This document shows positions 4,686 to 34,700 of a stretch of 43,584 bases of DNA, piece after piece. Made by a program: the position numbers and the translations under genes. Source of the stretch: a virus. The stretch covers positions 1-43,584 of IMG/VR virus record IMGVR_UViG_3300024262_000067. One strand, given 5' to 3'. Below the pieces are notes generated by a model. That model was not told the DNA's origin, did not search any database, and saw nothing but the letters and a program-made list of their open reading frames with translations. Position 1 is the stretch's first letter. The number at the start of each line of letters is the position of its first letter.

Positions 4686-7600
4686 TTATTGTGCCACAAC
4701 TGTTACACCAGGAGCCATCGGTTCGTATGACATATAAACCGTAACCGCTCCGGCACAAGTACCATCGTGGTCAACGTCAAGTTCTACCGAACCGGGTGGA
4801 AGAATCAAACCAACTCCAACAGCTGCGTGTAAAGCAACTCCATTGGTCGTTGCTGTCAGGTCATTGGCAATAACTCCATCCCAAACCAGTACAGTTCCAG
4901 CCGCCATACCATTACACTCTAAAGCGGGCGATGTCTGACCAAATTCTGTATCGGCCGCTGGTGTTGTCGGGTTCATATTGTAACCAATCAGACAACCCTC
5001 GGTGGCGATATTGGTATCAATGTAAGTAACGATGTTCGTTACCAGAATCGGCCCGCCTGCTATCGTAAACAAGCCGTTCATAGCAACATCAACATCAACA
5101 AGAGTAGTTATTGATTTGGAAACGCTGTACTGTTGCTGGATAAACTCAAGACGTTCCAGAACAGAGCCATCAGCATCCAAAGTTACAACAGTAGTGTCCT
5201 GACTCGTTGGTATTGGAATACCGCCCTCGTCAATCGCATCGGTAGCCAGGTTGCCAAAACACTTCAAACCGCCCGGGTCAAGGATAGTCGCTACGGTGTC
5301 GGCGTACAGTCTGTTGTTGGTAAATTCACCGAACGAAGTGTTTGAAGCCCATTTTACAGCATAATCACCAGTTGAAGAATTATGGATAGTGTTGTTGATG
5401 ATTCTCACATTAGTATCGGCCTGGTCGCCTTCGATAGCTGCCGTTGTGAAAGCACCATAAAAGTAACAGTCCTCAATTACCATACCGGTACAAGTACCGG
5501 AGGTGTTCGTAATAGCAGACACATTGCTGCCAGCGGCGGTGTTATTGATAAACCTGCATCTGGTAAATCGGACATTGTCCGTGCCGGACGCTAAAGTAAC
5601 CATATCAACAAATTCATTTGTTGTCGCATTTCGCCACTCGCAGTCCTCGAAAATCGCACCATCAGAACTGGCATCTAAACTAATGCCCACGGTATTGTCC
5701 TGAGTAGAGGGCGTGAAGATAAGGTTTTTATACTTTACATCAGGTACGGTATGAGCAAGGCTATCGTTTGCGGTATCAAACGTAAATATCGGACGAGCTT
5801 CACCAACGCCTAATCCAATTATCGAAATACCAGCCTTATTAACAGCTACAGAGCCGACAATATTCTCTGCGTGATTTGAAGCTACAAATATATAAGCGCC
5901 CGTGTTAGTGGTCGCATCGCCTATGGCAAGAACCAACGTAGCCTCAGCATCAATCCAACTTGTACCAAGTCCACTACCACCAGCAACACTCGCGTCAACG
6001 TAAAATACATTGTCGGCCGTAGAATCTATGCCAAGAACGGATGCGATGTCATCGGTCTGTTTTTGGAGCCATTCGAGCCTCTCGAGGTTAGAACCGGCGG
6101 CAACTTCTGTAACATCCGAAGTCTCGGCGCTTATCGGGATAGCTATTGCCTGCTGGTCAATTGCATCAACACCAAGATTGCCTGAACATTTCAAAGAACC
6201 AGGGTCAAGCATCGTAAGATAAGAGTCGGAGTACAATCTGTTGTTAGTTAATACGCCGGTTGCAGCAGCACTCAACTGGATAGCATATTTGGTCGAGGTG
6301 GTGTTACTTATCACGTTGTCTATAATAGACAGATTCGTCAGAACCTGGTCTGAATAGATACAGCCATTCGCAAATTCACCGAATGCGGTACAGCCGGTTA
6401 TCGTAGTTTGGTCAATAGTGCCGTCCGTAAGGTCGATAAAACAACTGGCGTGAGCGGTTGTAGCGTTTGAATTGTAATATGTGCAGTCCTTAATAGTTAG
6501 CTGTGCGGCGGCGGCGTCAACGTCAATACATATTACAAATTCCTCGTTAGCACCCTCACCTTTAATAAATGAGATATTCTCAAGCGTACAGCCGATACCG
6601 GCATCTTCTACTCGAAAAGCAGTAACCACTTGGTCAGCACCAGCTTGTAACCGAACATTCTTAACCGTAATACCGGCAGCATCTAAGGTAATTTCATCAG
6701 TGCCTGCATCACAGGTCAATAGCGGCTTGGCATCACCTTCACCCATACCGATAAATGAAACATTGGCTACATCTATAACAATATCGCCTATTTCCTCATC
6801 GTGGCCGTCAGCGATATAAACAACATCACCAGCACTACAACCGGCCTCAGCAAGTGCGAAAGTGGCGTAGGCGTTTTCCAACGTCAAGCCTGAACCGTCG
6901 CCGGACGTGCCGCTGTCAACATACCGAATAGTTCCGGCACAACCTAATATCGTTTTATCGTCAAGGTTCAACTCCTCTTTGCGCATAATCCAGATACCAT
7001 CACCGGTTGTTATCGCAGCGCCAGCAGCGACATTGAGTTCAAATGTCCCGGTTCCCGTATCATAATCAATGATGTCGATAATCTCACCTTCGGGAGTGCC
7101 GCCAGCGGTATCAAAGTTAAGAACAACCATCAAAGACCAGCCGGTATTAAAGTAATCATCACCAAAACCGGCCAAAGAAGCGCATACGGCAAAGGTAGTT
7201 CCACCGGCATTAACTTCACAAGTCCCTGCGTAACCGTTAGATGATGCGGTTATAGAAGCGATGGTGTTGTTAATACCTGTCAATGTAGCCGGTAGAGTCG
7301 TTCCGACAGCCGTAATAATAGTGTCGGTATCCGCTCCTAACGCCTGAAGAGACATAGTAGAGGCTCGATAATCACTGGTGTCTGCCCCAGTCGTCATAAC
7401 GTGCGAAAGTGAAGACTTATCAGCTATGTAAGTTGTTAAATCAGCATCTGCGTCAACAGTTGTGGATGCACCGGCAACGTGGTCAAGCTGGTAATCTGTG
7501 AAGTCTGCGAGAATCAGGTCGAGGAGGGCGTCAATAAGAACGAAATCAGCAAAAACGCTATCACCAGCGGTTCCGGCGGCATCGCCCCTGTAAGGACCGA

Positions 7601-24813: not shown

Positions 24814-25614
24814 TTACTCTCCTTCACCAGGCTCTTTTGCACTTCCGCCAGTCTCGGCCCAATAGCAAATATTTTCATATTGCTTGCCACGCTTAATCTG
24901 TGAGGTCGAATCTACGTTGTGATGCAGAGTCAGATAGGTCTTTAATTGATTTTCGCTCAGACCATTGGCCTTGCAGATTGCAAACAGTCGCTTCTGTTGT
25001 GCTGCTGAGATAAACTCGGTTTTGCCACCGCCCTCCGCACCTTTTTGATAATCCACTTTTGCGATGCCACTAACGCTAATGCCGTTATGTTGCAAATCTT
25101 CGGCGCTCATATTCTTTAAGCCAAGCAAGGCGGTTACTGCCCGGGCCTCCCAGTTTGCAAGAGCCGCTTTCCGAATGTCCATTGGGTCTGGAACCTTATT
25201 GCCATCTTTGCCGGTAAAGAAAGCATCCGAAGATGACCGACCTCCATCAATCTCAATTATTACTTCGCCGTAAAGCTGGTCGAGAACTTTACTTCCGACT
25301 TTGCCGGTTACTATGTAGCTGTAACTACCATCAGGATTGCTTTCTCTTGTTACTTCACGGTCTCGATAATAAATGCCCCAGATAGGCCGTATTTTTTGGG
25401 CACCAGCAGCTTGTAAATAATACGAATCTCCCATTTTCACCCAGTCTTTCGGATTTGTGCGTTGAATTGATACCTTAGCACAACCATCAATTACGTGGGC
25501 AATAGCCGATATACGAGCTATTGCCTTTTGGCTGTCGAGTTCCACTTCGAGCGGAGTGGGCATTCCAACTTTTTCAGCCACTACTTCTTGAATTTCTGTT
25601 TCTGTATCAGCCAT
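24814..25614 (-). CDS. Candidate single-strand annealing/recombination partner protein
   Basis: 266 residues; the second of two adjacent ATGs fits the AAGGAG spacing. Central region WVKMGDSYYLQAAGAQKI, RPIWGIYYRDREVTRE and DIRKAALANWEARAVTALLGL is reminiscent of the helix that follows the beta sheet in Rad52/Erf-type annealing proteins (mixed K/R-A-A-L ... A-L-LG). The C-terminus carries FISAAQQKRLFAICKANG, a helix often linked to recombination-factor modules. Its position beside a RecB/Cas4-like exonuclease strengthens the idea. I do not have a firm family match, so the role is inference. Confidence 0.45.
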   Translation of the reverse strand: MADTETEIQEVVAEKVGMPTPLEVELDSQKAIARISAIAHVIDGCAKVSIQRTNPKDWVKMGDSYYLQAAGAQKIRPIWGIYYRDREVTRESNPDGSYSYIVTGKVGSKVLDQLYGEVIIEIDGGRSSSDAFFTGKDGNKVPDPMDIRKAALANWEARAVTALLGLKNMSAEDLQHNGISVSGIAKVDYQKGAEGGGKTEFISAAQQKRLFAICKANGLSENQLKTYLTLHHNVDSTSQIKRGKQYENICYWAETGGSAKEPGEGE

Positions 25615-25924
25615 CATTTTCTCCTTTCAATTTGTCTGCCTTGGTAAGAGCAGCCTTGACCCTATCGCTTGTTCCAGAATTATGGTACGCATCGTACGCC
25701 TGCTTTTCAGTACAAACTTGGCCTACGCTTTCATTGAAAAAATGGTCGATTTCTTTGCACGCCGCATACAGGTCTGGCGCAGCGGCAATAAGACGAGCGT
25801 TGGCTCTATCTTCTTCTGTTATATCCGTACTGCCGTGGTCAATGTATGCATCGATAGGGGATATGCTTAAATAGCCTTCTGACTCAGTAAATATTTTCCA
25901 TTCACCTTTTGTAAATTCAGCCAT
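25607..25924 (-). CDS. Conserved small phage protein (ARLIAAAPDLY motif)
   Basis: 105 residues, start MAEFTKGEWKIFTESEG. Contains RANARLIAAAPDLYAACKEI, the hallmark of a small protein found in many phage early regions; function is not established. Begins in the overlap with the upstream gene (AATGATGGCTGA) and ends in the same sequence overlapping the next gene. Confidence 0.65.
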   Translation of the reverse strand: MAEFTKGEWKIFTESEGYLSISPIDAYIDHGSTDITEEDRANARLIAAAPDLYAACKEIDHFFNESVGQVCTEKQAYDAYHNSGTSDRVKAALTKADKLKGENDG

Positions 25925-26228
25925 CATTAACCTCGCTTTCGACAATACCGTAATAATTAAGCCCGCTCTTTAACCTTTTGATAACTACCACATTCCAGCC
26001 GACTTGCTGTAAAGCCTGTCTTATTTCCGATAATCGGCCAGTATATTTAAGTGCAATTGCGCTTAGCTCTTTATTGGACGGCGCAGATAAATCCTTATTA
26101 AGCAAACGCCGTAGAATCTTGCGGCATTGCCTGCTAAGTCTCGGCAAATCCTCATCGTCAACAGAAGGATTCAACAAAACCTCCGGCGGGCGGCGTTGCA
26201 ATTGCAAGAATGTCATCTGTGGGGTCAT
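25917..26228 (-). CDS. Helix-turn-helix-like protein
   Basis: 103 residues (MTPQMTFLQLQRRPPEVLL). The C-terminal part, SNKELSAIALKYTGRLSEIR followed by QALQQVGWNVVVIKR and a YYGIV strand, has a winged-helix pattern. It overlaps both neighbours by short ATGA-type junctions. Could be a DNA-binding regulator of early genes; function inferred. Confidence 0.5.
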   Translation of the reverse strand: MTPQMTFLQLQRRPPEVLLNPSVDDEDLPRLSRQCRKILRRLLNKDLSAPSNKELSAIALKYTGRLSEIRQALQQVGWNVVVIKRLKSGLNYYGIVESEVNDG

Positions 26229-26734
26229 TCGCTCTCCTCGTTATTGGGTTCCGTTAATGTTCGTGCCTCTGCTTCTAAATCCTCAAAGCATATTCGGCAG
26301 AGTTTTACATTGTCCCATTCCTTATAAACATCAGGACTGCCACACTTGTCGCATTTCGTCTCCTCTATGAGTTCGGGGGATTCGTGGATGTTGCCGATGA
26401 CTTCAATTAAGCCCCACTCTGATTTTACAAAACAATTATAACCATTCCACGCCCAACCCTCATTTTCTCTGTACTCAAATTTAACAACCCATACATCTCC
26501 TGCTTTGTGTCTTACTATATCCCCCTCGTATATCTCTTTGCCGTTCTTGTCCAAAAGGCCGGTGAACTGGATAATAGTATAACGATTAGTACCCATTAAC
26601 TCGTAAGAGTCTGAATACATCCCTTTGCTATGCTCACAAGTAAACCCACGACCTTCGCCTGTAACATAGAAGTATTCAGGGTTAAGCCAAAAATGCTTTT
26701 TGTTGTCCCACGCTCGATATTTTATAGGTCTCAT
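26225..26734 (-). CDS. YopX-family protein with C-terminal zinc ribbon
   Basis: 169 residues. The YopX signature is clear: MRPIKYRAWDNKKHFW, IIQFTGLLDKNGKEIYEGDI, a VVKFEYRENEG strand and VIGNIHESPELIE. The tail adds CDKCGSPD and LCRICFEDL, a zinc ribbon beyond the usual domain. YopX proteins are common in phage early regions; the biochemical role is unknown. Ribosome site GAGGAGAAGAA; overlaps neighbours at both ends. Confidence 0.78.
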   Translation of the reverse strand: MRPIKYRAWDNKKHFWLNPEYFYVTGEGRGFTCEHSKGMYSDSYELMGTNRYTIIQFTGLLDKNGKEIYEGDIVRHKAGDVWVVKFEYRENEGWAWNGYNCFVKSEWGLIEVIGNIHESPELIEETKCDKCGSPDVYKEWDNVKLCRICFEDLEAEARTLTEPNNEESE

Positions 26735-27042
26735 TTCTTCTCCTCGCCGAGAGCGGCTTTCTTATCAGGCATAATTTGGTCTATAAACTTAATGGCTCTT
26801 TCACAGGCGTCGAGGTCATTAGTGCATAAACCCTCATAAGCCAAACCACACGCCTTCTCCAACGCCTCGATGTAGGCGGCGGCTTGCTCGTAAATTTCGG
26901 CTCCTTCGTTTCCCCGCCAATCATTTGGGAACAATGTTCTTTCTGTTCCAGCTCTTTTTCTTAACCTTTTCGCCAATTCCCCCGTCTGTGTGGCGGGCTG
27001 GTCATCACAAGGAATGGTTTTGCGATGTTCTTTTTTGTCCAT
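26731..27042 (-). CDS. 103-residue hypothetical protein
   Basis: Starts MDKKEHRKTIPCDDQPATQ after AAAGGAGACGAAAA. Helical, with a middle resembling small phage proteins (IYEQAAAYIEALEKACGLAY). The upstream PG-binding-like gene overlaps its 5' end by 38 bases. No family recognised. Confidence 0.55.
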   Translation of the reverse strand: MDKKEHRKTIPCDDQPATQTGELAKRLRKRAGTERTLFPNDWRGNEGAEIYEQAAAYIEALEKACGLAYEGLCTNDLDACERAIKFIDQIMPDKKAALGEEKK

Positions 27043-27343
27043 TTTTCGTCTCCTTTAGCCTCCTCGCCCTGTTTTCTAAATCAGTTACAAGTTTACAAAA
27101 CGCTAATGCAGAGTTTTTGCCCCACTTGCCATCCACACCATCCGGCCCGATGTCGCAGCCAAGCCGACAGAGTTCGGCCTGTGCCGCCTGTATTTTGACC
27201 GGGCTGCTCGTTGAGCAAACAGGGCGAAAGCCGAGAGTGTGATAGAAGCTCACCGGCTTGCTCGCCCAGTAGAGAATGCCAAGACAAAAGCCAAGAACTT
27301 GACAAAGAATGACAACACCAAGATATGTAATTACCTGTTTCAT
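27005..27343 (-). CDS. Membrane-anchored PG-binding-like protein
   Basis: 112 residues, start MKQVITYLGVVILCQVLG after GGAGACCAAA. One N-terminal membrane span (residues 4-26) is followed by VKIQAAQAELCRLGCDIGPD and GVDGKWGKNSALAFCKL, the pattern of a peptidoglycan-binding (PG_binding_1) module: repeated Q-L-G-DG-G. The end is basic. It could help in lysis or in contact with the wall; no catalytic domain is present. It is the only gene here with a wall-binding signature. Confidence 0.6.
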   Translation of the reverse strand: MKQVITYLGVVILCQVLGFCLGILYWASKPVSFYHTLGFRPVCSTSSPVKIQAAQAELCRLGCDIGPDGVDGKWGKNSALAFCKLVTDLENRARRLKETKNGQKRTSQNHSL

Positions 27344-27477
27344 TTTGGTCTCCAGAATTTCCACCATTTGCGGACGTAACAAACCATTTTGCTGTTACCA
27401 TCGGTGACATCCATAAAATGACATTTTGGTTTAATCTTCCACCAAGGCCACCATCTACAATCCCTACATCGTTTCAT
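27340..27477 (-). CDS. 45-residue Trp/Cys micro-protein
   Basis: Start MKRCRDCRWWPWWKIK chosen because GGGAAAAGAAAA precedes it; longer extensions read back into the duplicated leader. CRDC, then Cys and Cys further on (KCHFMD, MVCYVRK) suggest a zinc knuckle, with many Trp. The stop overlaps the next ATG as ATGA. Unknown role. Confidence 0.55.
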   Translation of the reverse strand: MKRCRDCRWWPWWKIKPKCHFMDVTDGNSKMVCYVRKWWKFWRPK

Positions 27478-27506
27478 TTTTCTTTTCCCTTCATAAAAGG
27501 CGGCGG
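27472..27506 (-). repeat. Duplicated leader, copy A
   Basis: A GC-rich start (CCGCCGCC), TTTTATGAA, then GGGAAAAGAAAAATGAA forms the leader and start codon of the 45-residue gene. Nearly identical to 27657-27692. Confidence 0.85.
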
Positions 27507-27662
27507 CTAAAGTTTTCCATAAACATATACAGCAAATACACAAGGCTTTATATTGCATCTATCACATACTTCTGGATGTGTTTTTAACTGCTTGAGTACC
27601 TTTCTTGCTTCTGAATGAGTCAAACCACGATTAGTACAGACTTGTTTAACTTTAGCTTTCAT
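27507..27662 (-). CDS. 51-residue zinc-knuckle protein
   Basis: Starts MKAKVKQVCTNRGLTHSEA with the leader AAAGGGAAAAGAAA. Cys9, then CDRC (33-36) and Cys41 look like a small zinc site; the N-terminus is basic and helical (RKVLKQLKTHP). It is separated from the next gene by a duplicated leader. Function unknown; nucleic-acid binding possible. Confidence 0.6.
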   Translation of the reverse strand: MKAKVKQVCTNRGLTHSEARKVLKQLKTHPEVCDRCNIKPCVFAVYVYGKL

Positions 27663-27692
27663 TTTCTTTTCCCTTTCATAAAAGGCGGCGGC
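27657..27692 (-). repeat. Duplicated leader, copy B
   Basis: Leader and start of the 51-residue gene, differing from copy A (27472-27506) only by small indels. Both carry the CCGCCGCC element and an AAGGG ribosome site. Confidence 0.85.
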
Positions 27693-27763
27693 GGCAGACC
27701 ACGGCGTCTTTCTAACTATATTTTTCCCTCAAACATTCAAAACTTGACCTTTTTACTTTTTTG

Positions 27764-27889
27764 TTATTCTGCCGCCACCTTGTTTCCTTTCCGGCTTTCG
27801 CCGATTAGTTTCATAAAAGCCCGCCCTACCACCCACTTTGCGGGACACCCGCCAGCACATCTGGTCTCGTACCAATCGTCAGTTGCCAT
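27764..27889 (-). CDS. 41-residue protein
   Basis: Starts MATDDWYETRCAGGCPAKW with a near-perfect site (AAAGGAGGTGATATAT). Two Cys (CAGGC) and a helical basic end (FMKLIGESRKGNK). Its leader lies 20 bases beyond a terminator and downstream of a stem-rich untranslated region, so its expression is probably conditional. No family recognised. Confidence 0.6.
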   Translation of the reverse strand: MATDDWYETRCAGGCPAKWVVGRAFMKLIGESRKGNKVAAE

Positions 27890-27910
27890 ATATATCACCT
27901 CCTTTCGTTT

Positions 27911-27952
27911 CAATAAAAGGCTGGGGCTAAGAGTTCTCCTTAACCCCCAGCC
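27911..27952 (-). terminator. Terminator in the leader of the 41-residue gene
   Basis: On the minus strand GGCTGGGGGTTAAGG (27952 on) pairs with the complementary CTTAGCCCCAGCC arm (down to 27919), followed by TTTTATTG. The stem is about 13 bp with one bulge. The sequence on its 5' side (TCATCAC, CTCCTCCGAAG) is shared with the terminator at 30140. Ends 20 bases before the next ATG. Confidence 0.8.
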
Positions 27953-27978
27953 TTCGGAGGAGTGATGATTCAATAAAT

Positions 27979-28066
27979 GGGGCGGGCAGGATTCCCCACC
28001 GTTCACCTGCACGGTCCCGTCTGTTCATCTACTACCAGACATTTTCTACCACTTCACCACCGCCCC
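27979..28066 (-). ncRNA. tRNA-like stem-closed element (non-canonical)
   Basis: 88 bases closed by a perfect 7-bp stem GGGGCGG/CCGCCCC with a following A. Positions 8-26 contain a D-arm-like AGTGGTAGAA; positions 27-31 and 44-48 form a 5-bp stem (GTCTG/CAGAC); GCAGG pairs with CCTGC next to the acceptor, as a T-stem would. The would-be anticodon loop is 12 bases and the T-loop 15, so it fails as a normal tRNA. It may be a decayed or remodelled tRNA or a coincidental structure. Confidence 0.35.
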
Positions 28067-28075
28067 ATAGCTCAA

Positions 28076-28154
28076 ATTGCTGGCGGGCAACCCGTCCTTC
28101 TCGGTGGCCATCTCTAACTCAGGGCTTAAAGGGGCTGCGATTGCCGCCAGCAAT
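28076..28154. other. Long-stem element 2 of the 28 kb array
   Basis: 79 bases closed by an 11-bp perfect stem ATTGCTGGCGG/CCGCCAGCAAT (28076-28086 with 28144-28154), extendable past a one-base bulge by GGCAA/TTGCC on the minus strand. It lies 9 bases after element 1. No ORF with a ribosome site covers it. Confidence 0.6.
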
Positions 28155-28163
28155 AGTTCTTAA

Positions 28164-28228
28164 AACCGGCTGGGCTGGGAACTAAATGTAAAATACTTGA
28201 AGTTGGAGGAGTAGGAACCCCGCCGGTT
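28164..28228. other. Long-stem element 3 of the 28 kb array
   Basis: 65 bases closed by a 7-bp stem AACCGGC/GCCGGTT, again 9 bases from element 2. With elements 1 and 2 it fills the untranslated stretch 27890-28265, where no gene is evident on either strand. Confidence 0.5.
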
Positions 28229-28265
28229 GGAGTAATCAGATTAACTTGTCAATGAGCGATTCTTA

Positions 28266-28676
28266 TTATTGCTTTTTTGCTAATTCCCGACCAGTTTGCA
28301 CCAATTTATGCAGTAAGTCCTTAACATCTCCATCCTCTACGTTTTCTTCGATTTGACGAAAAGTAAAATAACCAACTTCGCCAGCAAATGCTTTCAGTCG
28401 CTCAATCTCGGCGGCCTGTTGCCGGATTTTTCTCTCTTGGTCTGCAATTTCCTGAATCTTCTCTGCGCAAGTACTGCAAATATCAACAATCTCGCCGGTT
28501 ACGGGGTCTGAATCTCTCTCCCTGCACTTGACACAGAACCTATTAGAGCAATAGAAACAGGGGCGTATTTTCTCTGAGTCGAAATATCTCTCGCTGCATT
28601 GCGGGCAAGGATAATCGCCCTTCGGTTCATCTGCTGCGTCCAAAACCTTCTGTTCTAAATCATCTGGATTAGCCAT
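28266..28676 (-). CDS. Multi-zinc-knuckle plus coiled-coil protein
   Basis: 136 residues (MANPDDLEQKVLDAAD). Four Cys pairs between residues 24 and 70: CPQC, CFYCSNRFCVKC and CSTC, consistent with a cross-brace of two zinc ions as in RING/FYVE-like modules. Residues 72-95 are a coiled coil (IADQERKIRQQAAEIERL). The C-terminal helix ends in RELAKKQ. A protein- or nucleic-acid-binding adaptor is likely; the specific role is unknown. Confidence 0.65.
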   Translation of the reverse strand: MANPDDLEQKVLDAADEPKGDYPCPQCSERYFDSEKIRPCFYCSNRFCVKCRERDSDPVTGEIVDICSTCAEKIQEIADQERKIRQQAAEIERLKAFAGEVGYFTFRQIEENVEDGDVKDLLHKLVQTGRELAKKQ

Positions 28677-28678
28677 TA

Positions 28679-28972
28679 TTAGTCCTCAACTTTCTCGTAG
28701 GTTTGTTCAAATATGTCGGGCTTGCAGGGATAAAAATGTTCGCCATCGGGTTCGGCAACAATCCAATCGCCGTCAGACAAGTACGTTTTCTGGTTGTGGA
28801 TAGTATTGACATAGAAACCAGCTCTGTTGCGAATAGTACCTTTGGCCCCCCCAACAGAAAACTCATCTACAAACAAACCTCTTGGCAGATTTTCCGGTTT
28901 ATTGAAAAAATATTCATCCCGCCAAAATTGGTATGCTTCAACGACTATTGGTTTTTTTCTGTATTTAGCCAT
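28679..28972 (-). CDS. Conserved small phage protein (YRKKP / CKPDIFEQTYE type)
   Basis: 97 residues beginning MAKYRKKPIVVEAYQFW and ending SDGDWIVAEPDGEHFYPCKP then DIFEQTYEKVED, an arrangement common to a widespread phage early protein of unknown role. Ribosome site AAGGGGCTAATA. Starts six bases from the end of the neighbouring coding region's leader. Confidence 0.72.
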   Translation of the reverse strand: MAKYRKKPIVVEAYQFWRDEYFFNKPENLPRGLFVDEFSVGGAKGTIRNRAGFYVNTIHNQKTYLSDGDWIVAEPDGEHFYPCKPDIFEQTYEKVED

Positions 28973-29011
28973 TATTAGCCCCTTTTCCGTTCATATCGTT
29001 ACCATTCGTGA

Positions 29012-29323
29012 TTACGTGCCTTGTTTCGGCCTTCGTCCACTGGCGGGCCTCTGGGCAGCCTTCCTGTCGATTCTGTGGGCTTTGCCAGCCTTCTTCTCCG
29101 CCGCTTTTATCCGCTTTTGAGCGGCCACGTCTGCCTTGACCGCCTGAACATAACAACCAGCATAAGTAAGGTCATAAGAACGCTTGCAGCCTTTGGCACG
29201 AAAGCGCAGGATGCTCGGCGGCACAAGCGTAACCACAACTTGCCGATGGTGGCCCGCCTCAAAGACCATTCCGCTATCAACGGCTTGTGCTATTCGAGAA
29301 ACTTGCTTTTTTAGGTCTGTCAT
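29012..29323 (-). CDS. 103-residue basic hypothetical protein
   Basis: Starts MTDLKKQVSRIAQAVDSG after AAAGGCAAATA. Beta segment (HRQVVVTLVPPSILRFRAKG) resembling small DNA-related phage proteins, and a strongly basic tail (KKAGKAHRIDRKAAQRPASG). Probable nucleic-acid contact by charge; family unknown. Confidence 0.6.
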   Translation of the reverse strand: MTDLKKQVSRIAQAVDSGMVFEAGHHRQVVVTLVPPSILRFRAKGCKRSYDLTYAGCYVQAVKADVAAQKRIKAAEKKAGKAHRIDRKAAQRPASGRRPKQGT

Positions 29324-29367
29324 TATTTGCCTTTCCCATTAGCGGCTTCCCTGCCATCAAAAAACTG

Positions 29368-29760
29368 TTATGCTGCTTGTTCCTCTCCGTCAAAGCCCAA
29401 ATCCATCTGCTTTTCTTCTTCTGACAACTGACGCTCATTGACGATTCCCTCGGTATCAAGGCGTATGAGCGTGGCAGATTGTTTGGTGTAATCGAGAATG
29501 AGTTTGCAATCGGTTTGGCGATACTCATACTTGTTGCGGACAAGAAGCTGTTTGGTGGTTATCTCCGCCTCACACATCGCCTCTTTCGCCTTAAAATCCT
29601 TAACGACCGATTCCTTTTCCTCTTGCGCTTGACGCAAATTATCAAGTGCACCTGCAAGTTCATCTCCACATTGCAGAAGCTCGTCCTGGGAAAGTTCGCA
29701 CTTCAAAAGATGCCTTTCGTGAGTGGTTTTTACTTTGTCATTTTCCTTTTGCTTTGCCAT
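29368..29760 (-). CDS. Conserved phage coiled-coil protein, first early gene
   Basis: 130 residues starting MAKQKENDKVKTTHERHL, with AAAGGATAGGAAA upstream. HLLKCELSQDELLQCGDEL begins a helical region, followed by VVKDFKAKEAMCEAEITTKQ and VRNKYEYRQTDCKLILDY, ending in LSEEEKQMDLGFDGEE. This layout is familiar from phage early operons but its role is unknown to me. It is the first gene after the structured RNA, 137 bases beyond its U-tract. Confidence 0.65.
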   Translation of the reverse strand: MAKQKENDKVKTTHERHLLKCELSQDELLQCGDELAGALDNLRQAQEEKESVVKDFKAKEAMCEAEITTKQLLVRNKYEYRQTDCKLILDYTKQSATLIRLDTEGIVNERQLSEEEKQMDLGFDGEEQAA

Positions 29761-29878
29761 TTTCCTATCCTTTCAAAAAACTAATTAGACCTTTAGCATA
29801 AAGGATATAATCTGTCCGATTGTATATGTTATGTTTCATTCAGCTTCGCTGCCCTTATTTTCTATTTACTCGCTGGTA

Positions 29879-29995
29879 TCACCGATGTTTTGGACGAATA
29901 AAAAACAAGCCCCAACAGTTGGACGCAAAGCAACCGCACAAGGCGGCAGATATGCCTGCTGGGGCTAAATTTCGGATAATGTGCTTTGCGTCCAT
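29879..29995 (-). CDS. Possible 38-residue leader peptide
   Basis: A frame starting MDAKHIIRNLAPAGISAAL after AAAAAGGACAAAGCATT. Its start codon lies inside the first arm of a 13-bp helix, and the frame runs through the second helix and the U-tract to a stop at 29879. Composition (Cys/Gly/Trp-rich middle) is not convincing as a stable protein. It may act as a leader peptide that melts the RNA, or be a chance frame. Confidence 0.35.
   Translation of the reverse strand: MDAKHIIRNLAPAGISAALCGCFASNCWGLFFIRPKHR
29897..29994 (-). ncRNA. Promoter-proximal RNA with two interleaved helices and terminator
   Basis: Helix A: TGGACGCAAAGCA (29994-29982) with TGCTTTGCGTCCA (29932-29920), 13 perfect pairs. 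Helix B: AGCCCCAGCAG (29966-29956) with CTGTTGGGGCT (29918-29908), 11 pairs including one G-U, followed by TTGTTTTTTATT. The order A1-B1-A2-B2 means a pseudoknot or alternative folds. A small CCGC/GCGG hairpin sits between B1 and A2. It begins about 30 bases downstream of a near-consensus promoter. It could be an abundant ~125-nt RNA, an attenuator or a processive-antitermination leader. Confidence 0.7.
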
Positions 29996-30032
29996 AATGC
30001 TTTGTCCTTTTTTAAGTTATCATATTATTTGC

Positions 30033-30061
30033 ATTATCGACTATCGAGCCAAGAAAGTCAA
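30033..30061 (-). promoter_or_regulatory. Early promoter, near-consensus sigma70
   Basis: -35 TTGACT (30061-30056), 17-base spacer, -10 GATAAT (30038-30033) on the minus strand, each one base off consensus. Predicted start near 30026. It faces the whole early region and lies about 80 bases after the terminator that ends the late/lysis unit. Confidence 0.8.
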
Positions 30062-30133
30062 ACAAAATCTGGAATTGGACACTTAGTTTTTTAGGACAAA
30101 ATCGTAAAGTCTTATATATGCAATAGTTACAAA

Positions 30134-30173
30134 ATAAAAAAAGCGCTCGTCCCAAGTGGGACGGGACGAGCAC
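30134..30173 (-). terminator. Strong terminator after the lysis-type cluster
   Basis: On the minus strand GTGCTCGTCCC (30173-30163) pairs with GGGACGAGCGC (30153-30143), one mismatch, loop GTCCCACTT, then seven T and ATTTTG. Lies about 50 bases past the lipoprotein stop; probably the end of the late transcript. Preceded by the TCATCAC/CTCCTCCGAAG element also found before the terminator at 27911. Confidence 0.88.
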
Positions 30174-30221
30174 TTCGGAGGAGGGTGATGAAAAGCTAAC
30201 GTACTTTGGCCTTCAGACCAC

Positions 30222-30536
30222 TTACGGTATTGTCGCTGCCGGAGTCATCTGGTATTGAAGAAGCAACTTTATAACTTCTACAAAATTAGAAGTCACATCA
30301 GCAGTAACCTGTGAAGTCGTGGTATTGACCGCACCCGCTTTTATCGTAGTTTTGCCTTGAGGGTCAAGTGACGCCGCAAGGTCGCTACCGGAAAGGTCTT
30401 GACCCATTATACTTACCCTGACGTCATATTTTGTTACTGTGCCATCGGGCGAAGTCCGCGTAGATGTCATTTTACTTGTTGCACAACCAGCCGACAAAAC
30501 CATCACCATCAATAATAAAAAACCTAATCGCTTCAT
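30222..30536 (-). CDS. Small phage lipoprotein
   Basis: 104 residues. Signal peptide with a lipobox LSAGC (Cys18), so a lipid-anchored envelope protein. The mature part is Ser/Thr-rich (TSKMTSTRTSPDGTVTKYD) with a C-terminal hydrophobic helix (NFVEVIKLLLQY). It overlaps the holin-like gene's stop (ATGA). In this position it may be the outer-membrane subunit of a lysis (spanin-like) pair, but it lacks the usual proline-rich sequence. Confidence 0.65.
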   Translation of the reverse strand: MKRLGFLLLMVMVLSAGCATSKMTSTRTSPDGTVTKYDVRVSIMGQDLSGSDLAASLDPQGKTTIKAGAVNTTTSQVTADVTSNFVEVIKLLLQYQMTPAATIP

Positions 30537-30748
30537 TTCTTTTTTCCCTTTCTTATTATGTCATCCTTGGTTTTCCGATTAAGAGCAACATACTTGCTCA
30601 CGAACTTTACAATCTTCAACAAAACAGTGTTGTCCTTCAGGGTTGGTGTCAACTTAACAATCACCGAGGCTGCCGCTATGATGTAGCAAATAATCTTCCC
30701 TATCTCGTCCCAGTGATTCTTCAGTTCCCATAATTGAAAAATATTCAT
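30533..30748 (-). CDS. Holin-like membrane protein
   Basis: 71 residues starting MNIFQLWELKNHWDEIG. A membrane span (KIICYIIAAASVIVKL, 18-33) is followed by a conserved-looking polar segment (TPTLKDNTVLLKIVKFV) and a basic tail (IRKGKKK), as in small class-II/III holin-like phage proteins often sited beside lysis genes. Good site AAAAGGAGAAAAACAA. Holin function is inferred from topology and position. Confidence 0.55.
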   Translation of the reverse strand: MNIFQLWELKNHWDEIGKIICYIIAAASVIVKLTPTLKDNTVLLKIVKFVSKYVALNRKTKDDIIRKGKKK

Positions 30749-30767
30749 TTGTTTTTCTCCTTTTCAT

Positions 30768-30971
30768 TTAACTTTGTCCGTTTTCACTCTCTTTTATGGT
30801 GGCTTTCAGCCCTTCCAATTCGGCCTTGAGCCTTCCAACGTCTTTTTCCGTTTGTTTCAATAAGCCTTCCGGCTTTAAGATGTTATATAGTGAAATAACA
30901 CATCTTTCAGCCTCACAGACAATAGTGTTCAAATCAAAGACGAGCTTATTGATTTCTTCAGTTTGAGTCAT
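30768..30971 (-). CDS. 67-residue coiled-coil protein
   Basis: Starts MTQTEEINKLVFDLNTI; two heptad-rich helices separated by ILKPEGLLKQ. No membrane segment. It overlaps the preceding gene's 3' end by 14 bases, so translation is coupled. Possible periplasmic or cytoplasmic partner in lysis; unassigned. Confidence 0.55.
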   Translation of the reverse strand: MTQTEEINKLVFDLNTIVCEAERCVISLYNILKPEGLLKQTEKDVGRLKAELEGLKATIKESENGQS

Positions 30972-31209
30972 TTAGCTTGACCTCAATCCTCGTTACGCTT
31001 TGCTTGATATACTCGATGTCCGTTTGTATCTTGATAATTGCCTCACCGTGCAGTTCTACTTTGGGGGGGATTTTTTCGAGGGTCTCAACCCTGTGATTGA
31101 GCCGGCCATAACCATAGACTACTGCCACAAGAGCGAGAATCGCCCCCGCTGCAATCTTCAATATCCGCCAAAATTTCTCGTTGTTGCTATTTTTCACTTG
31201 CAATCCCAA
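30958..31209 (-). CDS. Membrane-anchored coiled-coil protein (XhlA/spanin-like)
   Basis: 83 residues from a TTG start (AGGA six bases upstream); a GTG four codons later is also possible. One membrane span (ILKIAAGAILALVAVVYGYG, residues 16-35) precedes a coiled coil (NHRVETLEKIPPKVELHGEA, ending RIEVKLNDSN). This anchored-coil layout is that of hemolysin-XhlA-like or inner-membrane spanin proteins. Its start overlaps the -35 box of the divergent lipoprotein promoter. Confidence 0.6.
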   Translation of the reverse strand: MGLQVKNSNNEKFWRILKIAAGAILALVAVVYGYGRLNHRVETLEKIPPKVELHGEAIIKIQTDIEYIKQSVTRIEVKLNDSN

Positions 31210-31225
31210 TTTTATCCTGTATAAT
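31198..31225 (+). promoter_or_regulatory. Promoter of the plus-strand lipoprotein gene
   Basis: -35 TTGCAA (31198-31203), 16-base spacer, perfect -10 TATAAT (31220-31225). Predicted start near 31232, leaving a short leader with AAAGGAG. The -10 context TATAATAAAG is the same as at 2441. Confidence 0.75.
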
Positions 31226-31247
31226 AAAGAGCGAAAGGAGTTAAGTT

Positions 31248-31628
31248 ATGAAAAAGGTAATAGTGTTTAGTTTGTTGCTTATTGTAAGTTTTTCCGGTTG
31301 TGTTGGCAGTCCTATTCATTCCCACGCTACATACCGTAGTAGAAAAAAAACTATCCGGGAAAATAATATTGCTTTAATGAAATTAACAGTTGGTATAACA
31401 CAAAAGGAAGTGGAGAATGTTATGGGACGACCTACGCGGTCTGAGGGATATCCTTGGGGTTCAGTCTGGCTCTACCGGACAGCAATGAGCAGTGGAATTT
31501 ACTATACTGTTGACTCCGACCTTACCCCTGTGATGTTTGATAAAAATAAAATACTTCACGGTTGGGGACGTAGTTACTTTCAGCAATATGTAAGTAAGTA
31601 TGAACTTACTATAAAGCAACAAAATTAA
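31248..31628 (+). CDS. BamE/SmpA-like lipoprotein (moron)
   Basis: 126 residues. Signal peptide with lipobox FSGC (Cys18), basic linker, then LTVGITQKEVENVMGRPTRS and YPWGSVWLYRT, the beginning of the BamE/SmpA fold (helix, G-x-P turn, strand), and later FDKNKILHGWG. Good ribosome site AAAGGAGTTAAGTT and its own promoter. It lies against the grain of all neighbours, so it is probably expressed from an otherwise silent prophage or throughout infection and may alter the host envelope (e.g. superinfection exclusion). Function is inferred. Confidence 0.7.
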   Translation: MKKVIVFSLLLIVSFSGCVGSPIHSHATYRSRKKTIRENNIALMKLTVGITQKEVENVMGRPTRSEGYPWGSVWLYRTAMSSGIYYTVDSDLTPVMFDKNKILHGWGRSYFQQYVSKYELTIKQQN

Positions 31629-31705
31629 CTTTTCAAAGAGCTAAAGAACCAAATAAACTAAATCCACAAAACTTAATCTGGTGGCCGTGGCATCGAAAAC
31701 AGTAA

Positions 31706-34700
31706 TCATTCCACCATTCTTTCCTTTAATCTTTCTCTTTTTAGACCTTTACCGATAACTGGATGTCTCTCCAACGGGCCTACTGTTATCTTTTTCTCCC
31801 GGTTCCAGTATGCCTCTAAATAGTTTTCCACATTAGCCTGTGTTAGACCAAAATTTCTGAGATATTTAACAGTACGTTGGATTTCCTCTTCTGTTAAATT
31901 CACTTTTGTCAGGAAGTGTGCTTTGTTTTGCAATAGCCTATCAACGTCAATAAGTAGTTTAGGTTTCCATTCTTTACGAAGTTCATTGGGAACGAACTTG
32001 CTCTCAAGAATGTCATTTACGGTTCTGTTATACCGCCCAATCGCAGTCCTTGGATTTTTGATAGTTCCAAGGTACTGGTATAATTCTTCCTGCTGGCCTT
32101 TGAGCGAGAAAATTCTGCTTATGATTTCTTGTTCTCGTTTATCCTTCTCGGTTTTTGTCGGTCTAACACCTAACAAAGACTCCATTGCTGCTATTGTCGT
32201 ATCTATTTCCCTACGTCGCGATTGTTTGAAAACACTAACCGAAATCGGCTCAAGTTTCTTAACTTCGTGTACGGCAAGTTTCATCGCCCGGCGCAAAAAC
32301 GGGTCGGTGATTTCGGTAATTCGGTCGCCCTTCCAATCATATACGGCTCGACCCATTGAAATCAGAGCCAAATCAACAATCATATCTGCTGTCGGAGCTT
32401 TCATACCACCTATTCTTTTAACCGCATTTTTGACAGCCACATCAGGTCTGCCCTTTAATACATTGAAAGCGACTTGCCAATAGTCCTTATCATAAGTCAT
32501 AAGGTCTATCATTATCCGCCGATCCTTATCATCCCTCTTTCCAGTATCAATTTTGAAAAGGTCGCGAACATCCTCTGTTGTTTCGGGCTTTTTAGGCGGT
32601 TCGCCTGTCATAATCATAGTCCCTACTGTCGCCAACATGCCCGTAAGAATCAACGAATTGACAATGTTCGACCGTGAACGGCTTGCTCTAAATCCTTCCT
32701 TGCCCCCCCATTGCGTAACGGCCTTAATCATTGTTCGATAATTACCTTCGGCATAGCCTGGTGATAGAAAATAGAATCTCAATGCCGTTGTTACCGTACC
32801 ACTTCTGCCAAAAAGCCTTTCGTTCATCATGCCGTAAAAGTTCTGACCTTCTTTAATGATTTCTTGGAGTTCTGAATCAGTTAATTCGCGGCCCAATTTC
32901 TTTGCTTGTTCATCATACCACATTTGAGTCTTTGCATATTTGACCTTCGGGATGTAACTATTGAACATCCAATTAACAAAACCTGTCGGGATTCTCAAAG
33001 GCAAGGCCCCTACCCTGATTGCCTTCTGTTCACTGGCGGTAAATTTTTTGATGAATTTATTGAATGCCCTGCGACTTTCAGACTCGACACTGTATCTGTG
33101 TCCGCCGCCATTTCGGAGATAGCGTTTATAAAACGGTGTTATGAATATTGGGTCATTCTTACGAAAGCCGGATGTAATTCCTTGAATCGCTGTGCCTTTT
33201 TTCACACCGAAAGGAATGCGCTCGCCAGGCTTTCTGTAAAATTTTGCAATTTTATAAAATCCCAAGTAACCACTATCGGCAACTGATTGCTTTGCAACAC
33301 TCAGAAGGTGAAAAGCGCTACCAATGAATTTGACTGTCCGCAGGAAATTGTTTACATCGCGCAGGGTTTTGAGAATAGGTATTTTGGTGAGTTTATTTGT
33401 GGCGATGAGATTATTGATTAACTTCGCCAAATCCGGCTCCACTCTCAATCCGCTAAAGGCCGGGTCTTGCACTTTGTCCCATTCGACAGGAGCATCAATG
33501 AAATTATCTATGAATTTGCTTTCTCCCGTTCGCATTAGTTCGTCTTTGAGCCAGTTCATACCTTCAAGGTGGGCTATTGCGACATATTCGGATTTTAAGT
33601 TCCGCACGGGATTGGGATCTTTTATTTCAAGGCCGTAGGATTTTGCATCTGCATAGGTAGGCAACTTCTTTTCTTTTGTGAATCGCTTTGTCGTGCGCCA
33701 GTAATCAAGAAACTTATCAACCTTCTTGGAGTCCTTATAGATACCGTAAAAGTAATCCGCAACCCTATTGATATCGTCACCAACAACAGACTGGAGATAC
33801 TTGTAGTTGAAATCGGCTATGTGCTGGATTGCCTTAATCAATCGCGGACTGCGCAGCTCTTTTGGTAATTTGTTAATTGCATCCCGCTTTATGAGCTGGG
33901 CATTCACCGAAACTGGATTACCTCTGGAGAGCATCAAATTGTCTAAATCTTTATCAGGAAAGCGGTCTAAGTATTTTTCCAGTTCAGCAATGACTTTATC
34001 TTTTTTCGGCAGCTCGGTCTGCTCAAATTCGACCCGTGCCACATCTGTGGCGTGAATGCCTTTTATGACCGCAGCAGCGGCTTCCTTGCCTAATTTTCTC
34101 TCAACGGCCTTGCTCGGCTCCAGAACCCTCATAAAGGTCTTGTGAGCTTCAAGAATAGGAGTTACATCTGCAAAGCCCGGTTTGCCCTTCGGCTTCTCGA
34201 TGGGCTTGTATTCGTATTGCTCCGGCACGGATTTTTTAAGTGTCGGCAACGCTGATGGATTGTAGCCACGTGCTCTCAAGTCCTTATCAATAACATCAAG
34301 GCGAGGCTGATATTCTTTTCTTAATTGCTCAACATTGAATTGTTCACTGTATTCTGCCGCTTCACCTAAAAGCCGTTGTCGTTCATCAAGCAATAAATCT
34401 GTAAAATACTTCCGCTCGGCAGGAGTTTCTTTGGCTATCTGGATAGGAGTTTTCTTTTTGACTATTGGCTTCTGTACCTTGGCCTTTTCCCCCTTCGCCA
34501 GAGCCTCTTGCGCCCACTTCTCGGATTTGTATTCTTCGAGGACGGAAAGGGGGACGGGCTTGCCTTGTGTGATAGCCGCTTTAACAAACTGTTCGTGTAA
34601 ATCAAAAACATCACCGGATTTTTTACTCACAAGATATTCGGTATGTTTCATTTCCCACGGCTCTTTCGCCGCAGGTTTGGCTGCCTCTGCTGCGGGGATT

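Follow-up and report, generated by a model that had tools for sequence, protein, structure and literature searches.

An RNA in which two long helices are interleaved lies at the head of a gene block in a 43,584-base virus record, the whole of which (the window) was analysed here. Judged by comparison with its relatives, on which both the fold and the membership rest, this RNA belongs to a family of phage RNAs that has no match in Rfam. Copies of the family precede various phage genes, most prominently those for HNH endonucleases. Probably the RNA acts in cis, as a pseudoknotted terminator leader with a core of about 95-100 nt that sits at the 5' end of phage transcription units and limits the gene that follows.

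Gene context and structure of the window RNA

The window comes from a tailed phage according to its portal, major head, terminase and tail-fibre matches. On the (-) strand, a gene block from 43442 to 30222 with virion and tail-fibre matches is followed by a terminator-like hairpin, the RNA and a block of mostly small genes, which include a YopX match, a Cas4-like nuclease, a DNA methyltransferase and a replication protein (Table 1). From this gene content we read the first block as late and the second as early. The first gene of the early-type block, about 140 nt past the RNA, might carry a promoter of its own. A twin contig, 99.98% identical across about 10 kb, carries the identical RNA and, being nearly identical to the window, provides no independent evidence. 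Searches with the genes at 29371-29760 and 24817-25617 returned this twin only. The terminase gave no match against genome contigs, hence no host link, and megablast of positions 20000-43000 against 50,697 phage records gave none either.

Table 1. Features of the RNA and its surroundings in the window, in the order of transcription
Feature	Positions	Strand	Remarks
Strong terminator-like hairpin	30140..30176	(-)	15 pairs, T-run; closes the preceding gene block
Sigma-70-type promoter TTGACT-17-GATAAT	30033..30061	(-)	10/12 consensus matches; predicted RNA start near 30026
Shine-Dalgarno-like AAGGA	30005..30009	(-)	9 nt 5' of the leader AUG; sequence
Leader ORF, 38 codons, MDAKHIIRNLAPAGISAALCGCFASNCWGLFFIRPKHR	29879..29995	(-)	Frame usually open in relatives, peptide unconserved
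Helix A, 5' arm (A1) TGGACGCAAAGCA	29982..29994	(-)	13/13 complementary to A2
Helix B, 5' arm (B1) AGCCCCAGCAG	29956..29966	(-)	11 pairs with B2, one G-U
Hairpin C (CCGC-CTTGT-GCGG)	29934..29946	(-)	Between B1 and A2
Helix A, 3' arm (A2) TGCTTTGCGTCCA	29920..29932	(-)	Pairs with A1
Helix B, 3' arm (B2) CTGTTGGGGCT	29908..29918	(-)	One base past A2
U-rich run TGTTTTTTATT	29897..29907	(-)	End of the terminator-like element; sequence
First gene 3' of the RNA	29368..29760	(-)	130 aa, no Pfam/PHROG match; head of the early-type block

The first-pass annotation, made from the letters of the window, had described a near-consensus promoter, a helix A of 13 perfect pairs and a helix B of 11 pairs in the order A1-B1-A2-B2, followed by a U-rich run, with helix A over the start codon of a 38-codon ORF. 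All of these elements were found as described; the UG of the leader AUG at 29995 forms the first two pairs of helix A, the first at 29994. Absent from that list was hairpin C, whose stem CCGC/GCGG pairs 29946-29943 with 29937-29934 and whose loop in several relatives is, by eye, GNRA or UUCG. The complete order is thus A1-B1-hairpin C-A2-B2-U-run.

Promoter-like sites as such are not rare, 15 occurring in positions 26000-32000 compared with 9.9 in shuffles. Interleaved stems (each of at least 10 pairs and one of at least 12, within 130 nt) were found once on the two strands of the window, and in none of 30 whole-window dinucleotide shuffles scanned in the same manner on both strands. Folded alone, the RNA stretch is modestly better than its shuffles (z -2.15, 4/200 as good) by a program that cannot form the pseudoknot. 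The G+C-rich 11 pairs of helix B directly followed by TGTTTTTTATT give the layout of an intrinsic terminator; its 37-nt loop exceeds the 3-8 permitted by the terminator scan, in which it was not listed. When the helices of the window are folded singly, B (-32.1 kcal/mol) is more stable than A (-31.7 kcal/mol) by 0.4. Of 14 members folded, 12 have B as the stabler helix by itself. Both helices together would be lower in energy if the cost of the pseudoknot is modest, their combined energy being taken as nested fold plus duplex sum, which is not a true pseudoknot energy.

Other sequence features near the RNA

A stretch TTTTCAT(C/T)ACCCTCCTCCGAA lies just 5' of a terminator-like hairpin in the window (30194-30174 (-)) and in L091 (8258-8278), with 20/21 letters equal between the two. 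It recurs exactly in L098 (13495-13515), there behind the RNA and not ahead of it, and more loosely in L089 (15581-15600) and L105 (14645-14665). It resembles the anti-Shine-Dalgarno end of 16S rRNA and might pair with ribosome-binding sites. Behind the RNA, GAAACATAACATAT is shared by the window (29837-29824 (-)) and L098 (13144-13157) within otherwise dissimilar surroundings, 158 nt and 172 nt from the AUG, respectively.

Further along the window, a tRNA-like stretch GGGGCGGTGG...CCTGCCCGCCCCA at 28068-27981 (-) was not called by ARAGORN, and a tRNA-end-like GTTCGAATCTCTCCAGCTCC is found in L098 near 13720. A direct repeat, CCGCC(GCC)TTTTATGAA(A)GGGAAAAG, precedes two small genes at 27692-27657 and 27507-27472 (-), and more hairpins followed by TTTATTG are located 5' of window genes; these repeats and hairpins may be a shared leader or terminator signal.

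Relatives by position and by architecture

Positional relatives were collected in two scans with the C-terminal 600 residues of the 1742-aa protein encoded upstream of the RNA as a query, which returned 23 relatives (L086-L108) besides the twin. Four of them (L091, L097, L098 and L105) show an interleaved pair behind the large-protein gene. The syntenic L098 has the same helix order together with a Shine-Dalgarno (AAAGGA) before its AUG, and the other three have other spacings. L092, L096 and a second place in L097 reached the threshold elsewhere and were taken as chance. Since the remaining relatives, some with flanks that end early, show no interleaved pair at the thresholds used, the element is not universal even among phages with the large protein. 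Two other structures of this group are not interleaved and stand outside all counts, namely a hairpin before a gene in L086, and in L087 (14175-14335), behind the large-protein gene, a promoter-like TTGACA-16-TAGAAT with an 18-bp helix enclosing an ATG and a separate strong terminator.

A descriptor demanding an ATG at A1 was run over 1.25 Mb of loci, duplicates included, and found the same layout in L006, L007 and L046, phages that had been picked solely for sharing another small gene. It gave about fifty rows, many of which repeated a locus already listed; from these, those with long stems and a fitting tail were kept and the others set aside as chance, with no null computed. From a second architecture search, which made no demand for an ATG, the rows of L109, L111 (three), L173 (two) and L130 were kept. 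The three copies of L111 (969, 2898 and 4187) precede three different genes, by eye including a coiled-coil protein and a replication protein, and L173 has two copies. Other copies precede genes for lipoproteins (L046, L142) and a replication protein (L097), again by eye.

With blastn and E up to 10, the window RNA gave 98 records with short matches, the 15 listed having E 2-7; the L007 RNA gave no match up to E 1, and the leader peptide none up to E 10.

Covariation of both helices

With their AUGs set in register, window and L098 differ on both sides of 9/13 helix A pairs, while 4 pairs are the same and none is broken. In two alignments of three sequences each, made regardless of structure, 7/25 pairs are changed on both sides with 98.7% of cells paired (A6), and 3/29 with 98.9% paired (A5), the latter equalled by 8-20 of 500 shuffles.

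A covariance model (R1) restricted to helices A and C, built from A6 and without the window, was run over 94 of the 201 loci plus the window (686401 bases). Of its nine matches up to E 1, one is the window RNA at 29997-29902 (25 bits, E 0.0018), which had no part in building the model. The same scan missed L098, L105, L091, L097 and most of the look-alikes upstream of HNH genes. A second model (R2), built from eight matches including the window and excluding L098 and L111 2894-2985, gave six matches up to E 1 over 86 sources (985 kb). Two of these were unseen, L098 (36 bits, E 2e-5) and L111 2894-2985 (E 7e-7); L046, L105, L091, L097, L117, L118, L130, L132, L135, L165 and L192 were missed. 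What these looser look-alikes have in common with the family is architecture alone, a common ancestry being putative. With all filters off, R2 marks one place in the window at 56.5 bits, the next reaching 12.5. A scan of 392 genomes from the phylum of G028 with R2 returned none and says little, its first pass having also lost L098 and, with R1, the window.

In an alignment of 13 members (A11), 95.9% of cells are paired and 21/25 pairs are changed on both sides; none of 500 shuffles was as good, and slid versions reached at most 41.7% paired. A11 was fitted to helices A and C, leaving helix B outside the model, and in helix B 92% of cells are nevertheless paired and 9/11 pairs changed on both sides. 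Selection therefore acts on both crossing helices in these 13 members. The window itself is found by a model built without it, and keeps both helices through two-sided changes. A2 and B2 are 0-2 nt apart in 12/13 of the A11 members (5 nt in L142). This abutment, with C against A2, fits a C-A-B stack in which the helices would coexist in one pseudoknot.

The comparison of relatives that the first-pass annotation had proposed thus favours its pseudoknotted RNA of about 125 nt, both helices being kept by compensatory changes. The case it had named as contrary, homologues that retain the coding potential and not the pairing, is found reversed: the pairing is kept and the peptide is not.

Association with HNH endonuclease genes

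In L006, L007 and L091 an HNH endonuclease gene begins 7-18 nt past helix B. We scored interleaved stems over the 150 bases 5' of the HNH start in 80 loci drawn from an HNH alignment, among which L109 is L007 again and some contigs are near-duplicates. A score of 20 was found in 16/80 of these stretches and 24/911 controls, and a score of 24 in 10/80 and 2/911, the controls being stretches elsewhere in the same loci, mostly coding and not other gene-upstream regions. Each of the 16 cases beats all 40 of its own shuffles, and in all of them helix B ends 9-24 nt 5' of the HNH start codon. The RNA thereby extends beyond what could be seen from the window, as it recurs before HNH endonuclease and other genes in other phages. 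The phage G007 has two RNA and HNH pairs, and a pattern search of the viral collection returned six stretches, each followed by an HNH-type gene; three of the six were new. By their gene tables, seven of eight HNH regions from named phages have no gap before the HNH gene in which such an RNA could lie, and the 150-nt gap of the eighth (L213) gave no R2 match. The window has no HNH gene of the RNA-linked family (best tblastn E 0.22).

Leader AUG, promoter spacing and reading frame

The distance between an ATG and the first helix A pair is at most 3 nt in 20/24 copies and at most 12 nt in 22/24, a share that is biased upward in the first group of members because the search for them demanded an ATG. 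The first pair of helix A at the ATG, as in the window, is accordingly usual and not general in the family; six look-alikes have no ATG near A1 (L130, one L192 copy and, as scored, L155, L138, L118 and L124).

In 13/22 members, the -10 box of a promoter with at least 9/12 matches has its end 5-11 nt upstream of an ATG near A1, compared with 104/4760 control ATGs from the same loci, up to two ATGs having been tried per member. This spacing suggests an RNA start at or close to the AUG. In the window and L098 no promoter is found at such a distance from the AUG; their leader is longer and has a Shine-Dalgarno, and by the predicted promoters some 30 nt or more of its 5' sequence are unpaired.

When the ATG nearest the first pair is taken, its frame is open through helix B in 17/22 members compared with 12/44 of the other frames (p 0.0002). 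This count took 10/16 of the score-20 HNH cases and omitted L155, L137, L138, L118, L124 and L113, whose scored pair is ambiguous. Tested later, four of these six rows lacked an ATG near the first arm and two had a closed frame; with those two and L218, L220 and L222 added to the 22, 20/27 AUG frames are open compared with 16/54 others (p 0.0003). Some leader frames are short (12 codons in L097, 12-13 in L119). In several HNH copies a leader frame continues into the HNH gene or ends at its ATGA, an overlap that often follows from the frame alone because these HNH genes begin ATGAA. The substitution pattern of five close members gave no sign of protein-level selection, 30/300 permutations being as good as the best frame.

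Translation may therefore matter, and the peptide itself does not appear to. The translation-coupled control raised in the first-pass annotation may be at work, as an AUG in helix A recurs and its frame is more often free of stops than the other two.

Comparison with known RNAs

The whole window has no Rfam match at gathering score. At low threshold, ten matches came up in 29850-30250, all far below their gathering scores and the majority over the terminator at 30140-30176; a PAGEV match on the other strand overlaps the RNA at 13.7 of the required 61.1 bits (E 0.33) and is sub-threshold. The RNAs of 12 look-alike loci likewise had no match at gathering score in a scan of 17 loci to which L098, L006, L206 and L142 did not belong. 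The openly licensed literature, by titles and the starts of abstracts, yielded no RNA of this kind, and a description elsewhere is possible.

HDV-like ribozymes, which have a similar helix order, were considered and rejected for the length of helix A (10-13 bp) and because A2 and B2 give no space for another helix. The put RNAs of phage HK022 act in cis at early phage promoters and promote antitermination, so that polymerase resists downstream terminators; to our knowledge they have no terminator of their own. The first-pass annotation had named them as a precedent. Its reading stands in the part that places a pseudoknotted RNA of about 125 nt past a promoter and before early-type genes, and is not supported in the analogy with put: the position at an early phage promoter is alike, but the window RNA has no Rfam match and ends in its own terminator-like hairpin. 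The C4 antisense RNA of phages P1 and P7 is a leader RNA with stretches a' and b' complementary to a and b, and represses an anti-repressor gene as antisense. In contrast, the window RNA is without an Rfam match and has its four stretches within 90 nt, helix B ending in a U-run. PMC2864571 gives both names, C4 antisense RNA (RF01695) and c4-a1b1. The same paper describes the STAXI motif (RF01728) as a pseudoknot with frequent UUCG loops near genes of DNA-handling proteins; it occurs there as two or usually three tandem repeats, whereas the RNAs considered here are single copies behind separate promoters and have no Rfam match.

RNA hairpins upstream of the T4-type homing endonuclease genes I-TevI, mobE and segB limit their expression, according to PMC2988022. 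These too are structured RNAs before phage endonuclease genes, but they are simpler, cover the gene's own ribosome-binding site and are absent from late transcripts, whereas the window family combines a pseudoknot with a promoter of its own, a leader AUG and frequently a U-run.

The int-alpA RNA (RF02996) resembles the window RNA in being a small RNA directly before HNH genes of the same family, whose outer helix, by eye, begins at an ATG or close to one, past a promoter. In our reading of its consensus, a CCUU loop could also pair with a downstream AAGG, which makes an order A1-B1-A2-B2 readable. It differs in that B1 would lie in the loop of an inner hairpin and that the outer helix is 7-8 bp and encloses two hairpins, whereas helix A of the window encloses hairpin C and the B1 arm. 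Consensus letters such as CGAAAAG are missing from the window RNA, and the int-alpA model gave no match in the window at gathering score and none up to E 10 at 29850-30250. The int-alpA RNAs directly upstream of HNH genes are located at L136 636-706, L143 2913-2981 and L145 2910-2976; L123 and L128 have similar letters by eye, below gathering score. The L145 contig also has a Type II hammerhead ribozyme match (42.0 bits) at 6307-6371 (-).

Proposed function and alternatives

In the terminator leader that we propose, helix B and the U-run would form an intrinsic terminator, so that most transcripts would end short and the next gene (in the window, the block from 29760) would be reached via read-through only. 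A run of five or more T stands at the end of helix B in 13/22 members, counted without a computed control, and suggests termination in these; the other 9 (for example L091, L117 and L135) have no run of five. Less certain than the terminator, helix A would close the AUG once A2 is transcribed, about 75 nt past the AUG. Similarly less certain, a ribosome on the AUG before A2 appears would keep A and B open and transcription would continue; in the HNH copies coupled translation perhaps continues too. The polarity could be reversed if A and B exclude each other. The two options of the first-pass annotation, a small RNA or a switch, need not exclude each other.

A wider reading, possible and for now tentative, is that these RNAs are a general device of phage gene control that measures translation through a race of the first ribosome against RNA polymerase. 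An early ribosome on the AUG at or near the 5' end would prevent the pseudoknot and terminator, and the early, replication or endonuclease gene would be read; with no early ribosome the AUG would be locked and the transcript would end. The time before A2 emerges is a second or two at usual transcription speeds. As only the architecture is conserved and not the letters, each copy would be private in such a race, without cross-talk within one phage.

The alternative that survives best, though we regard it as unlikely, is a free-standing small RNA, in which the terminated RNA of about 125 nt would act in trans on RNA or protein of host or phage, with a separate promoter serving the next gene. It would account for the promoter and terminator-like end of the RNA itself, for the predicted start near the first helix A pair in 13/22 members and for the distance of about 140 nt between the window RNA and the next gene. 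However, relatives differ freely in the letters of A and B, which therefore retain no constant seed, and the 9-24 nt between helix B and the HNH start in the 16 cases point to action in cis.

Rather improbable is that the RNA travels as part of a mobile HNH cassette, as a control element or cofactor of the endonuclease, with the window copy being one without its nuclease. The RNA is found directly before HNH genes in many contigs, twice in one phage and three more times by pattern search. On the other hand, the window lacks an HNH gene of that family, the RNA heads other genes too (gene types by eye), 64/80 HNH-upstream stretches remain below score 20, and the HNH regions of named phages provide either no gap (7/8) or, in L213, no R2 match.

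A pseudoknot near the 5' end might shield phage messenger RNA from decay, read-through being normal. The predicted RNA start close to the first helix A pair in the same 13/22 members is in line with this protective role, but the T-runs that suggest termination and the long unpaired leaders predicted for the window and L098 argue against it, and we hold it to be very unlikely. Least probable is a type I toxin messenger with a hydrophobic peptide silenced by helix A: the short ORF with its hidden AUG and the partly hydrophobic peptides (by eye) of the window and L091 would suit it, but other members encode basic, non-hydrophobic or very short peptides, the peptide is not conserved, and no + strand promoter of at least 9/12 lies over the RNA, the nearest toward it (29569-29597) being some 300 nt off.

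The window RNA and its relatives make up a family, matched by none in Rfam, in which both helices of a pseudoknot covary strongly. One architecture thereby links the head of a phage early block with that of HNH endonuclease genes, and offers a concrete and readily testable means by which a phage may couple early transcription to the loading of ribosomes. Should the RNA indeed act as a terminator, pseudoknotted terminators past promoters would form a class that escapes simple hairpin scans.
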